Shown piece after piece: positions 21,535-25,972 of a stretch of 36,376 nucleotides of DNA; position 1 is the first letter of the stretch, and every line of letters begins with the position of its first letter. Made by a program: the position numbers and the translations under genes. The notes beneath the pieces were generated by a model. That model saw only the letters and a list, made by a program, of their open reading frames with translations, ran no database searches and had not been told where the DNA came from. Origin of the DNA: an uncultured Opitutia bacterium (GTDB lineage: Bacteria > Verrucomicrobiota > Verrucomicrobiia > Opitutales > Opitutaceae); assembly GCA_903830425.1 (NCBI GenBank), contig CAIKTR010000238.1, positions 1 to 36,376 of the forward strand, read 5' to 3'.

Positions 21535-22414
21535 GCCGCCGCTGGGCCCAGAGGTTGTCGGCGGTGTACAGCGCCAGCCCGCACCAAATGAAGGCGAACG
21601 CCGCCGCGTGCTCGTGGGAAAAGGGCTCGTGGTACACCCAGACCCCGAGGATGAACTGCACGGTCGGGGCGAGATACTGCAGCAGGCCGAGCGTGGAGAG
21701 CCGGATGCGGCGCGCGCCGTAGGCAAACAGCAGCAGCGGGATGGCGGTGACGACGCCCGCCCCCACGAGCAGCACGTGCGGCCCCGCCCCGACGCGGCCC
21801 AGCGCCCCGGCGCCGGTGTGGTGCTGCCAAAGCAGGAAGGCGAGGGCCAGGGGGAACAGCAGCAGCGTCTCCAGCCCGAGGCCCGTCAGCGGCCCGAGGG
21901 GCGACTGCTTGCGCAGCAGGCCGTAGGCGCCGAAGGTGGCCGCCAGGGTCAGGGCGATCCAGGGAATCCGGCCCACCCCCAGCAGCAGCAGCGTCACCCC
22001 CGCCACGGCGCAGCCGATCGCCACCCACTGCACCGGCCGCAGGCGCTCGTGCAGCACGAGGCGCCCCAGCGCGACGTTGACCAGGGGCACGAGAAAATAG
22101 CCGAGGCTCGTTTCGAGGACCTGCCCGTGGTTGACCCCCCAGACGTACACCAGCCAGTTGAGGGTGAGCAGGACCCCGCTGAGCGCGTGCCAGCGGAGCG
22201 CCGGGCGCGACCGCAGCGCGGCCCCGAACTCGGTGAAGCCGGCCCCGGCCGCCATCAGGATCAGGACAAAGGCCAGCGACCAGACGTGCCGGTGCGCGAT
22301 CAGCTCCGTGGCTTCCACGTCGGCGAGCTGTTTCCAATAGAGCGGAAACAGGCCCCAGGCCAGATAGCAGCCGGCCGCGGCCAGGGCGCCGCGCCCGGCG
22401 TCACGACGGCTCAT
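21521..22414 (-). CDS. rarD: EamA-family transporter, RarD type
   Basis: 297 residues with roughly ten hydrophobic segments in the double EamA (DMT superfamily) layout. The N-terminal signature CYLAWGLFPLYWKQL and the ELIAHRHVWSL segment are characteristic of RarD, and the second half has YGARRIRLSTLGLLQYLAPTVQFILG, stated here as two landmarks (YGARRIRLST; LLQYLAPTVQF). RarD-type proteins sit in the inner membrane and are thought to export or import small molecules; first linked to chloramphenicol sensitivity by name only. Its start overlaps the stop of a small lipoprotein gene by 4 bp (ATGA), so the two are coupled. The 3' end overlaps the convergent FKBP gene by 14 bp. Confidence 0.9.
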   Translation of the reverse strand: MSRRDAGRGALAAAGCYLAWGLFPLYWKQLADVEATELIAHRHVWSLAFVLILMAAGAGFTEFGAALRSRPALRWHALSGVLLTLNWLVYVWGVNHGQVLETSLGYFLVPLVNVALGRLVLHERLRPVQWVAIGCAVAGVTLLLLGVGRIPWIALTLAATFGAYGLLRKQSPLGPLTGLGLETLLLFPLALAFLLWQHHTGAGALGRVGAGPHVLLVGAGVVTAIPLLLFAYGARRIRLSTLGLLQYLAPTVQFILGVWVYHEPFSHEHAAAFAFIWCGLALYTADNLWAQRRLSRA

Positions 22415-22659
22415 TTATCCGCCGCGCGGGTGTAGCTGTAGCGGGCGCGAAATTCATCGATGGCCTGCTGCCGCGCGATATCGATCCGCAGCCCCTGCGC
22501 CAGCAGCTCCCCGGTCCGCTTCTCCATCCAGCGCTGCTTGAAGCCCTCCTCGACGTCGGTGGCGACGGCGGTGATTTCCTTGGGCTTTTTCTTGCTGTGC
22601 CAGCAGCCGGTCGCCAGCAGTAGGGGCAGGAGGAGGCAGAAAATAAGCGGACGTTTCAT
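22411..22659 (-). CDS. Small lipoprotein
   Basis: 82 residues from ATG 22659. A lipobox LLLATGC places the modified cysteine at residue 19, after a MKRP basic start and a Leu-rich core, so it is a membrane lipoprotein (residue 20 is Trp, with no Asp retention signal, favouring the outer membrane). The remainder is polar, with KKKPKEI and a helical VEEGFKQRWMEKRTGELL, LDIARQQA-like stretch ending YSYTRAADK. I recognise no family. It overlaps the rarD start by 4 bp, so both are expressed together. A divergent gene starts 101 bp away at 22761. Small size and real signal make it a likely gene, not noise. Confidence 0.75.
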   Translation of the reverse strand: MKRPLIFCLLLPLLLATGCWHSKKKPKEITAVATDVEEGFKQRWMEKRTGELLAQGLRIDIARQQAIDEFRARYSYTRAADK

Positions 22660-22760
22660 AGGGAAGGCTGATTGCTGAGAGGTTACCATGGGGGAGTTCG
22701 ACCGCGAGGGAATCTTTTTGGTTTCGCGCCGCAGGCAAAATTCGTTTCTATCCCTGATTC

Positions 22761-23870
22761 ATGAGTGACGAGCCACCCCCCCCTTCGCTGCGCCTGAAGC
22801 CGCGCCAGCGACCCGAGGCTGAAAATGCCCCGGCCGCGCCAGTCGCGGGGGCGGCGGAGTCCGAGGCCGGAAAACTGCGGCTCAAGCCCAAGCTGGCGCC
22901 GGATCCGGCCGCCGCGGCGGCGGTTCCGGACCCGGCCCCTTTGGTCCCGCCGGCCGGCGCCGGCGAGCGGATCCGACTGAAGCCCCGGCTGAGCCAGGAA
23001 CCCGAGCCCGCCGCCGCCCCGGCTGAGCCCGGCCCGACGGGGTCCGCCCCGGCGGAACCGCCGGCCCCGGAAGAGGCCAAGATCAGGCTCAAGATCAAGA
23101 TTCCCGAGGCGCAGATCGAGGCCGCCGCCCGTGCGCCCCAACCGCCGGTCGAGGAAACGCCTCCCGCCTTGGGGGCCCCGCCGCCGTTTCCCGTGATGCG
23201 GGCGCCCGAGTCCGCCCCGGACGAGGCCCCGCCACCGGTGCTGCGCCCCATTATCCGCCCTGGCTCCCCGCGCCCGGGGCCCCCGCCCCGGAGAATTCCG
23301 CCCTCCGTGCTGGCTGCGTCCGCCCAGCGGAAGAAAGTCCTCCGGCTGGTGCTGGTCGCGCTGGTCGGCTTGCTCGTCGCCGCCGCCGTCATCCGCCTGG
23401 CCATGTTCAAGTTTAACGATCCGGCCCCGGCCAGCCGCGTGCCGCGTCCGCCGCCGGCGCAGCCCGGGCACGTGGTGCCGGTGCCGGCCCCCGAATCCGA
23501 CGCGCTCAAGGAGCCGGCGGCGGAAGAGCCGGCTGAACCCGTTCGGACGCGCCCGGCCAAGCCGCGGTCCAAGTCCGGCGTCACGGTCACCACCGCGACC
23601 ACCGACCTGGCCCCCGGCGTCACCGTGACGACCGAGTCGGTGCAGGCCGAGATCGAGGCGAGCCAAGCTTTCCGGACCTTTGTCGCCGATGCCAAGATCA
23701 GCGGGGTTTTCCAGGGCACGCCGCCCCGGGCCTTCATCAACGGCCGCCTGATCCGCGTGGGCGAGACGGTCGACCCGTCGCTGGGGATCACCTTCGAAAG
23801 CGTCGACCCGAAGGCCAAGAGCATCGTGTTCAAGGACTCGACCGGCGCGACCGTGGCTCGCCGCTACTGA
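22761..23870 (+). CDS. Single-pass membrane protein with four RLKPR-type motifs
   Basis: 369 residues. The N-terminal half is Pro/Ala/Glu-rich and probably disordered, carrying four similar short motifs: LRLKPR (10-15), LRLKPK (39-44), IRLKPR (71-76) and IRLKIK (108-113), spaced 29, 32 and 37 residues. A single transmembrane segment follows at about 193-211 (VLVALVGLLVAAAVIRLAM), so the motif-rich tail should be cytoplasmic. After a Pro-rich linker, a C-terminal domain of about 80 residues begins AEIEASQAFRTFVADAKISG and ends with FINGRLIRVGETVDPSLGIT and a final strand. The NGRLIRVGETV pattern resembles the periplasmic domain of GspB/PilP-like secretion-pilus proteins, a weak similarity only. 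No neighbouring pilus or secretion gene is present. The stop overlaps the convergent membrane-protein gene by 7 bp. Function unknown. Confidence 0.8.
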   Translation: MSDEPPPPSLRLKPRQRPEAENAPAAPVAGAAESEAGKLRLKPKLAPDPAAAAAVPDPAPLVPPAGAGERIRLKPRLSQEPEPAAAPAEPGPTGSAPAEPPAPEEAKIRLKIKIPEAQIEAAARAPQPPVEETPPALGAPPPFPVMRAPESAPDEAPPPVLRPIIRPGSPRPGPPPRRIPPSVLAASAQRKKVLRLVLVALVGLLVAAAVIRLAMFKFNDPAPASRVPRPPPAQPGHVVPVPAPESDALKEPAAEEPAEPVRTRPAKPRSKSGVTVTTATTDLAPGVTVTTESVQAEIEASQAFRTFVADAKISGVFQGTPPRAFINGRLIRVGETVDPSLGITFESVDPKAKSIVFKDSTGATVARRY

Positions 23871-25972
23871 GGCGGCGGCGCGCCTGACGACACGCGCAGC
23901 GCGCCGAAGAGCGGCCAGTCCCACCCGGTGTCGCCCCGCGGCCCGGCGTCGACCCGCAGCAGGAGCAGGCGGTTCGGACCCGGCGGCAGGGCCAGCTCGC
24001 GCGCCAGCGTCCCCCGGTCGGCGGCGCGATCGCGCGGGTTGATCAGCTCGTGCCGCAGGAGGGTCTCGCCCCCGTCCCCGCCGCGCAGGATCCAGGTCAG
24101 GCCCACGCCGTCCGAGCGGCCGGACCCGTCGTAGGAGCCCGAACGCATGCGCACCGCGAGCGCGATCCGGGTGGCCGCCGGCGGCAGGGCGAAGCACACC
24201 TCGGCCGGCGGGGTGAACTGATACATCGTGCGCCCGTCCACCGTGAACGTCTCGAGCGGCGCGAACAGCGTCCAGCGGCACGGCTGCAGTTCGAAATCGA
24301 CCAGTCCGCGCAGCTGCCGCTCGGCCAGCCGCTGAAAATCCAGCTGACGTTCCGCGTCGGCGCCCAGGCGGGTGACCAGGGAAACCTGGTCCGCGGGGAT
24401 CGCCGCGGCCGCCAGCAGGGCGCGCGCGTTGTCCGCCGTGGGATTCCAGGCGAAGCGCATGTGGGAACCGGGCAGCCCGCCGGAATAGCCGTTGACCGTC
24501 ACCCGGTGCTGCGCGAGCGCGGCGCTCCAGGCATCGAGGTGAATCCAGACGTCCGGCTGGTTGCTGTAGCCCGGCGCAAAGGCGAGGACGGGACGGTCGC
24601 CCGCCAGCTGCCACGCGGCCACCAGGGCGGCGGTGCGGGCGCGCGCCGTGGACCGCAGCGTGATGGGCTGATGGTGCCCGAGGTTCTCGAGCGCCATGAG
24701 GCCGGCCAGCCCGACGCAGCCGGCGCGGAGCAGGCGGGGCCGCGCCGCGGCGAGCCCGGGCGTGAGCAGCAGGCCGGCGGCGCCGACGAGCGCAAACTGC
24801 AGCAGGCCCGCGACGCGGCCGCCGGCGCGAAACGCCCGCAGGGGTTCCACCCGGGCGGCGAGCCACCCCCAGCCGCCGTCGCCCGCGGCGTTCCATTTGG
24901 TGAAGAACAGCGCGGTGGCGAGCGCCCCCAGGCCCAGCGCCAGGGCCCAGGCTCCCGCGGGGGTGCGGCGGCGGGACCAGCCCCTGACGAGCAACCCGGC
25001 CAGCAGCAGCCACGGCAGCGCGCCCGAGAACCACGCGTGCTCGACGAGGTTGGGGTGCCCGGCCGGCCAGCCGGCCGGATAAAACCAGCTCACGGGCGAG
25101 GGGGTGAACCACGACGCGGGCGTGGGCGCCAGATCGATGACCTCGCCCAGTCCCCGCGCATGCCCCGCGCGGAGGGCGGAAAGATACGGGCCCAGCGTGG
25201 CGGCGGCCAGCCCGGTTCCCGCCAGCAGCACGGGGATCGCGCCCCACCACGGCGCGCGGGACGAGGCGGCGGTACCGGCCGGCCGGGCTGCAGCTGGTCC
25301 CAGCGCTAGGCGGGCTAGGCCCACCCAGCCGGCGATGACCGCGGCAAAGAAGGCGGAGTACGGGCCGGCGGCGAACTGCCAGGCCCACCAGCCGAACCCC
25401 GCCGCCAGCCGCCACGGGCGGCGGTCGGCCTGCCAGCGGACGGCCTGCTCCCACGCCAGGAGCGCGGGAAAAATCGGCAGCATCTGCATGTGCGTGCCGG
25501 CGAGCCACACCATCGTGGTCGAGCCCACGGAGGCAAAGACCACGGGCCCCCGCAGCCAGTCCGCGACGCCAAGGGCGCGAAAGAGCCGGAACGCGGCGAC
25601 GGCGTTGAGCGCGGCGACGACCACGAACCAGAGCGCCCAGGCCTCCTCCCGCGAGATCGAGAGGCCGCGGAGCCCGGCATAGATCGGCAGCGTGCCGGCG
25701 TGGGTGTCGCTGTAGGCCAGCGTCCCGCGGAGGGGATAGAACTGCCCCGGCGAATCCCACGCGCTCAGGCCGCGCAGCGCCTGGTAGCCGTGCTCGAGCA
25801 GCAGCTGGTTGAACCGGCCGTCGCCCAGGTCGCCGGGGTAGGCCCGGCCGCCGCTCAGCCAGATGCCCTGCGTGACGTGCAGCACGGCGAGCACCCCCCA
25901 GGCGAGCGCCCAGGCTGGCAGCAGGCGGGTGGCCCAGGGACGGAGGCCGGAAGACGCTGCGCGCAGATGCAC
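23864..25972 (-). CDS. Polytopic membrane protein, GT-C glycosyltransferase-like, with C-terminal jelly-roll-like domain
   Basis: 702 residues. The N-terminal 450 residues contain roughly ten transmembrane segments. The first extracytoplasmic loop contains GDLGDGRFNQ and YPLRGTLAYSDTHAGTLP, with acidic residues where GT-C enzymes place metal or catalytic carboxylates. From about residue 500 the protein is soluble and beta-rich, with RMRSGSYDGSGRSDGVGL, LINPRDRAADRGTLARELAL and GDTGWDWPLFG, a pattern I recall from C-terminal sugar-binding-like domains of bacterial membrane glycosyltransferases. The function is inferred to be transfer of a sugar from a lipid carrier at the inner membrane; this is not proven. 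It is 63 bp downstream of a GH78 gene on the same strand and may share its transcript. The stop overlaps the convergent gene by 7 bp. Confidence 0.7.
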   Translation of the reverse strand: MHLRAASSGLRPWATRLLPAWALAWGVLAVLHVTQGIWLSGGRAYPGDLGDGRFNQLLLEHGYQALRGLSAWDSPGQFYPLRGTLAYSDTHAGTLPIYAGLRGLSISREEAWALWFVVVAALNAVAAFRLFRALGVADWLRGPVVFASVGSTTMVWLAGTHMQMLPIFPALLAWEQAVRWQADRRPWRLAAGFGWWAWQFAAGPYSAFFAAVIAGWVGLARLALGPAAARPAGTAASSRAPWWGAIPVLLAGTGLAAATLGPYLSALRAGHARGLGEVIDLAPTPASWFTPSPVSWFYPAGWPAGHPNLVEHAWFSGALPWLLLAGLLVRGWSRRRTPAGAWALALGLGALATALFFTKWNAAGDGGWGWLAARVEPLRAFRAGGRVAGLLQFALVGAAGLLLTPGLAAARPRLLRAGCVGLAGLMALENLGHHQPITLRSTARARTAALVAAWQLAGDRPVLAFAPGYSNQPDVWIHLDAWSAALAQHRVTVNGYSGGLPGSHMRFAWNPTADNARALLAAAAIPADQVSLVTRLGADAERQLDFQRLAERQLRGLVDFELQPCRWTLFAPLETFTVDGRTMYQFTPPAEVCFALPPAATRIALAVRMRSGSYDGSGRSDGVGLTWILRGGDGGETLLRHELINPRDRAADRGTLARELALPPGPNRLLLLRVDAGPRGDTGWDWPLFGALRVSSGAPPPQ

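Follow-up and report, generated by a model that had tools for sequence, protein, structure and literature searches.

A single-span protein with a repeated-motif tail and a predicted HR-type C-terminal domain in an uncultured Opitutaceae bacterium

Organization of the tail/HR locus

The window analyzed here, a stretch of 36,376 nucleotides from an uncultured Opitutia bacterium (own genome, G000), contains a gene for a single-span protein with a long N-terminal tail and a predicted HR-type C-terminal domain, hereafter the tail/HR protein (Table 1). The locus reads DEAD helicase, UDG, FKBP, EamA transporter, small lipoprotein, tail/HR gene, rhamnosidase, MarC and Dus, a neighborhood that is largely kept across the loci compared, and neither an ATPase gene nor a gsp cluster or pil genes were found beside the tail/HR gene. 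The frame is free of internal stops and translates into 369 amino acids, in which the four motifs at residues 10, 39, 71 and 108, the one membrane span and the compact end described in an earlier note on this DNA are all present. The tail N-terminal to the span is Pro/Ala/Glu-rich and of low complexity, comprises 18 Glu and 4 Asp versus 26 Lys and Arg, and would be cytoplasmic and disordered. Besides the motifs, it carries a further conserved segment, whose PPFP is invariant in all 11 aligned same-genus proteins. The protein start displays no lipobox and the C-terminal residue is a Tyr. No Pfam family was matched at E-values up to 1 and no Pfam or NCBIfam model fits, in line with the earlier view that no named family has this layout; a search of the open-licence literature found nothing on the protein or its motif.

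Frames of 1025 and 361 amino acids overlap the tail/HR gene on the minus strand. Among 11 same-genus sequences, 41–55% of agreeing residue pairs are encoded by differing codons, depending on the region (46% in the motifs). This argues that selection acts on the protein in the plus frame, and both minus-strand frames are therefore unlikely to be the gene. A separate, membrane-protein-like frame of 702 amino acids (window positions 23864–25972, minus strand) overlaps the last bases of the tail/HR gene; it has no Pfam match, and tblastn identified no copy in the relatives' loci compared.

Table 1 Features of the tail/HR locus (positions in the window)
Feature	Positions	Strand	Basis
Small lipoprotein-like gene, divergent; 82 aa counted from likely start (longest frame starts at 22689)	22411–22659	-	Homologues, adjacency
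Conserved element GAATCTTTTTGGTTTCG between lipoprotein and tail/HR genes	22710–22726	+	Homologue upstream regions
Tail/HR protein gene, 369 aa, stop included	22761–23870	+	Open frame, homologues, selection in frame
Motif 1, LRLKPR, residues 10–15	22788–22805	+	LRL(K/R)PR in 12/12 same-genus proteins
Motif 2, LRLKPK, residues 39–44	22875–22892	+	Same-genus comparison; absent from G004
Motif 3, IRLKPR, residues 71–76	22971–22988	+	Same-genus comparison; absent from G003, G004, G009
Motif 4, IRLKIK, residues 108–113	23082–23099	+	(I/V)(R/K)LKIK in 12/12 same-genus proteins
PPFPV stretch, residues 141–145, further conserved tail segment	23181–23195	+	Same-genus alignment
Single membrane span, about residues 193–213	23337–23399	+	Kyte-Doolittle window; RKK immediately N-terminal
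HR-type domain (predicted), about residues 305–369	23673–23867	+	AF2 model pLDDT; VIA matches

A 17-base element, GAATCTTTTTGGTTTCG, is located between the lipoprotein and tail/HR genes. With up to 4 mismatches, it occurs in 30 of 47 homologues at a distance of 29–35 bases upstream of the start codon, and 14 of them harbor it exactly. When 2 mismatches are allowed, the own genome contains a single site, that at the locus, and across 57 relatives this tolerance yielded 52 sites versus 18 for a reversed control pattern. Twelve of the 13 exact sites in these relatives lie at the tail/HR locus, the thirteenth (G048:C20:27340) belonging to another family. A function as a general promoter element was rejected on the basis of the one site in the own genome and the largely locus-bound distribution of exact sites. 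The bases flanking GAATCTTTTTGGTTTCG, CGCGA and TCGCG, may constitute an inverted repeat, and the element could act as a locus-specific promoter, an operator or a leader.

Distribution among relatives

Whole-protein searches detected the tail/HR protein in 24 of 57 relatives including the own genome, all of one family, with complete coverage of the genus (12/12). Two further genomes were added by a tail profile (G012 and G034) and one by inspection beside the lipoprotein gene (G026), yielding 27 of the 37 family genomes in the set of 57. Searched across 236 genomes of the class, an HR profile had matches in 27, of which 19 belong to the family of the tail/HR protein; five drawn genomes of this family gave no match. 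In two assemblies the gene appears disrupted: one TGA interrupts the frame just before the span in G001 (L007), and in G032 (L130/L025) the frame is shifted or broken, through either decay or faulty assembly. The tail module was not found on any other C-terminus, neither in 61 family genomes searched with the tail profile nor in the own genome searched with the motif pattern, and nine new tail-profile matches that were read out all end in an HR-type domain.

Repeated motifs of the tail

Within the genus, four motifs are present in nine of 12 proteins, three in two and two in G004, a count that the earlier note had proposed as a check of motif conservation. Motifs 1 and 4 occur in every genome of this set and motifs 2 and 3 are lost in some; in many more distant homologues, motif 4 has a counterpart reading FKLKPK or similar. 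For quantification, we defined a strict pattern, [ILVF][RK][LIVF][KR][PS][KR], with 300 shuffles per tail as the chance level, and applied it to 48 homologue rows; these include L123, a truncated copy of L143, and nine rows collected via a profile that included the tail. N-terminal to the span, 106 strict motifs were counted in 10,995 residues versus 0.07 expected, and C-terminal to the span none in 4,801 residues. At least one strict motif is found in 43 of the 48 rows, the five without being L065, L066, L067, L073 and L085. In a fairer subset, 12 new family genomes recovered by the HR profile alone, ten contain a strict motif, and LRLK near the start is retained in the remaining two. Other families of the order display a looser start, for example LKLKLS or LTLRLSK (L067, L070, L073, L085). 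The motif DNA pattern has five sites in the own genome, two of which lie in the tail/HR gene; the remaining three fall into frames without tail or HR layout. Pairwise residue identity among 11 same-genus sequences reaches 0.84 in the motifs, compared with 0.48 for tail positions outside the motifs and 0.68 for residues 281–369. Judged from these sequence comparisons, the motifs are selected elements, beyond chance.

The earlier note had taken the motifs to be regularly spaced, which does not hold among the homologues: individual rows contain 0 to 4 strict copies, mostly two or three, and neighboring copies lie 21 to 112 residues apart. The first copy, strongly kept, falls within the first 12 residues. 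We consider it an even bet that the motifs are protein-docking sites. They could act as short linear motifs that gather a cytoplasmic partner through the avidity of several weak sites, and the L-R-L-K alternation would fit a short strand that joins the sheet of such a partner.

The main rival for the motifs is binding to the inner leaflet, where short amphipathic Leu/Lys/Arg stretches would fasten the tail, which is Pro-rich and partly acidic, to anionic lipid. Such a role would tolerate the variable spacing and number of motifs and fits the alternation of hydrophobic and basic residues; it demands, however, less than a Pro at position 5, fixed Leu at positions 1 and 3 and a kept first copy, and the pairwise identity of the motifs lies above that of the HR region, so that we judge lipid binding unlikely. 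As clusters of basic residues in a flexible tail, the motifs might alternatively bind nucleic acid or ribosomes and keep DNA or RNA near the membrane. This we regard as highly improbable, for the tail also carries acidic residues alongside the basic ones and nucleic acid binding should have no need for fixed hydrophobic positions. Protein docking stays our preferred function of the motifs. Whatever they bind, their very good conservation makes them a ready bait for a partner.

A predicted HR-type domain at the C-terminus

An AF2 model of the C-terminal 105 residues was built on the window's sequence together with that of L001, a Verrucomicrobia relative. From its residue 41 onward, pLDDT averaged over blocks of ten residues stays above 90, and the model comprises one helix and seven strands. 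The five best VIA-align rows are all HR entries, namely GspC (3oss, Z 7.2), GspB (4wfw, Z 6.8) and three PilP structures (2y4y, Z 5.5; 2ivw, Z 5.0; 4av2, Z 5.0), each below the Z of 8 under which the tool's own notes call a match middling, and unrelated rows begin at Z 4.3. A Foldseek search of the PDB with the same model yielded no E-value under 0.001 and placed unrelated enzymes first. The HR profile searched against PDB sequences gave two weak matches of the chemotaxis/FliN type (E 0.29 and 0.35). T2SSB (PF16537), the Pfam family of GspB, found no match in G000 at E-values up to 10 and none among 26 HR sequences. In the genomes of 38 relatives, T2SSB exceeded its cut-off in two, both times in what are lipoprotein-like proteins by eye. 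At the loose E-value of 10 it also matches 10 of 14 control genomes, which renders weak T2SSB matches meaningless. We predict from the model that the C-terminal end is an HR domain of the GspB/GspC/PilP kind, an assignment founded on the agreement of five separate HR entries and on paralogues. The GspB/PilP-like end put forward in the earlier note is thus borne out at the level of a predicted structure, with modest scores.

The HR profile links the tail/HR protein to a second HR protein encoded in the own genome (G000:C45, L078:3564-4166; E 4.5e-8), which has a counterpart in the complete genome G014 (E 1.1e-11). This paralogue contains one span and a Pro/Ala-rich linker, starts with MSLINDALKKAQ and lacks repeated motifs. 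The same profile recovers proteins starting MSLIN(E/D/Q)AL(K/R)KAQ, a start that we take to resemble that of GspB. At L078:2530-4166, an AAA ATPase gene is followed by the HR paralogue and a sugar transferase gene; the ATPase matches an XrtA/PEP-CTERM ATPase model (TIGR03015-like) at E 6.1e-86 and 288 bits, below the cut-off of 324.5. The ATPase and the HR paralogue resemble a GspAB pair placed in an exopolysaccharide context. Further HR paralogues, free of motifs, are located at L046:7961-9220 and L047:9065-9985. When ten proteins around each were scanned with Pfam, both neighborhoods contained an ABC-F-type ATPase and a DUF2059 protein; TonB-dependent receptors appeared solely around L047, and no gsp or pil gene was identified around either.

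Secretins in the genome

HR proteins are periplasmic adaptors of secretins, four of which were matched in G000, none near the tail/HR gene. The first lies in the Pfam-assigned order gspD, gspE, gspF, and no GspC candidate was found among the neighboring frames that passed a length and GC3 filter; by eye, the complete genome G014 displays the same order, likewise with no GspC candidate seen alongside. By eye, the second belongs to a pilM-N-O-like operon that includes a small gene resembling PilP. The third adjoins a protein whose T2SSM_b match stays below threshold (E 0.0027). The fourth (L180, G000:C105) is positioned beside a type III secretion inner-ring-like protein, again by eye. GspD, searched with the N-terminal part of the gspDEF secretin, has matches in 52 of 57 relatives. 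It is present in ten family genomes without a detected tail/HR protein and has no match in G032, which has one; joint gain or loss of GspD and the tail/HR protein is unsupported by the presence pattern in these 57 relatives.

In published work, the HR domains of GspB and GspC bind the secretin N0 domain (PMC9239104; PMC3169554), OutB thereby holding OutD (PMC9239104) and GspC holding GspD (PMC3169554) from the inner membrane. The gspDEF secretin may serve as a first, weak candidate partner of the HR domain studied here.

The divergent lipoprotein gene

The closest neighbor of the tail/HR gene is the divergent lipoprotein gene, which has matches in 28 of 57 relatives and adjoins the tail/HR gene in 24 of the 27 genomes with a tail/HR protein. 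Adjacency was established by pattern at 20 loci and via coordinates in G015 and G025; G026 and G032 complete the set, the tail/HR frame of G032 being broken. No copy was found in G012, G030 or G034, all of which encode a tail/HR protein, and the gene has matches in four genomes without a detected one (G013, G028 and, weakly, G020 and G021). Its product is predicted to form one long helix, residues 27–81 (pTM 0.38, two sequences). A C-terminal Lys ends 20 of 26 lipoprotein homologues compared with 25 of 268 long, high-GC3 frames, a count that cannot be read as a probability since the homologues are related and not independent. Braun's lipoprotein also has a C-terminal Lys, and the gene possibly encodes an Lpp-like protein in this group. 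One YkuD-type L,D-transpeptidase match was obtained in G000.

These data bear on the main rival for the protein as a whole, a secretin-free envelope tether. Here, the HR domain would meet the adjoining lipoprotein, itself in the outer membrane and perhaps peptidoglycan-linked via its C-terminal Lys, and the tail would reach a cytoplasmic structure. The lipoprotein gene is indeed closer than any secretin, its predicted helix, frequent terminal Lys and the L,D-transpeptidase match suit such a tether, and work on Dickeya describes OutB itself as attached to peptidoglycan through the Lys at its C-terminus (PMC12274547). Against this stand the origin of the VIA-listed HR entries, which come from secretin-linked systems, the three genomes in which the lipoprotein was not found and the four in which it occurs without a detected tail/HR protein. 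The Lys count is moreover drawn from non-independent homologues, and in E. coli a terminal Lys is found in over 20% of the periplasmic proteins (PMC12274547). On balance we doubt the tether.

Discussion

We favor the reading that the tail/HR protein is an HR protein of the inner membrane and a divergent relative of GspB, GspC and PilP with a new multi-motif N-terminal side whose motifs dock a partner, and assign it a probability of roughly 0.45. Its model-based component, an HR-type scaffold, is probably correct. On this favored reading, the HR domain would, like those of GspB and GspC, bind an outer-membrane secretin at its N0 domain and so tie the pore to the inner membrane, with the motifs gathering a partner on the cytoplasmic side. 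Both candidate partners are guesses, namely the secretin GspD of the unlinked gspD-gspE-gspF set and, in the cytoplasm, the ATPase GspE. The divergent lipoprotein may add an outer-membrane or peptidoglycan anchor. Because the tail/HR protein ends in Tyr, a peptidoglycan anchor could come only in trans, and we would guess that the lipoprotein supplies it.

In a bolder version, the strand-like motif array would replace the GspA-type ATPase partner and gather, for instance, hexameric GspE at the pore, and the Lpp-like lipoprotein, encoded from a shared divergent promoter region, would give in trans the peptidoglycan anchor that OutB has in cis. As this joins two unproven parts, we hold it to be quite unlikely.

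If the favored reading is true, the repeated linear motifs would show that an HR scaffold can also organize the cytoplasm, in bacteria with little-studied secretion systems. The linked lipoprotein offers a second handle on the tail/HR protein.

Comparison with known systems

With GspB/OutB (4wfw; Z 6.8, rmsd 3.1, 63 aligned residues), the tail/HR protein shares one span, a linker and a predicted HR-type domain, and the adjoining small lipoprotein gene recalls the gspB-gspS pair of Dickeya. In published work, gspB adjoins either gspA or the pilotin gene gspS, the latter in Dickeya (PMC9239104). The lipoprotein adjoining the tail/HR gene is predicted to be one helix, and no ATPase gene lies beside the tail/HR gene. 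Unlike GspB/OutB, the tail/HR protein gives no T2SSB match and has a long, motif-bearing tail N-terminal to the span. OutB has a Lys-ended extension (PMC12274547), whereas the tail/HR protein stops with its HR domain, in Tyr.

GspC (3oss) is the best VIA row and would share the HR fold (Z 7.2, rmsd 2.2, 60 aligned residues), but the tail/HR gene lies outside a gsp cluster and its product has nothing C-terminal to the HR domain. The PilP structures (2y4y, 2ivw and 4av2; Z 5.5, 5.0 and 5.0) likewise match in predicted fold. The tail/HR protein differs from PilP in that it is not a lipoprotein, carries a long tail before the span and has no adjoining pil genes; the pilM-N-O-like operon of G000 contains its own PilP-like gene (by eye).

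A further comparison, within the genome, is with the GspB-like L078 paralogue, whose homologous C-terminal domain, one span and Pro/Ala-rich linker are shared with the tail/HR protein. It differs in that a single short start, MSLINDALKKAQ, takes the place of the repeated motifs and in that its gene lies directly 3' of an ATPase gene.
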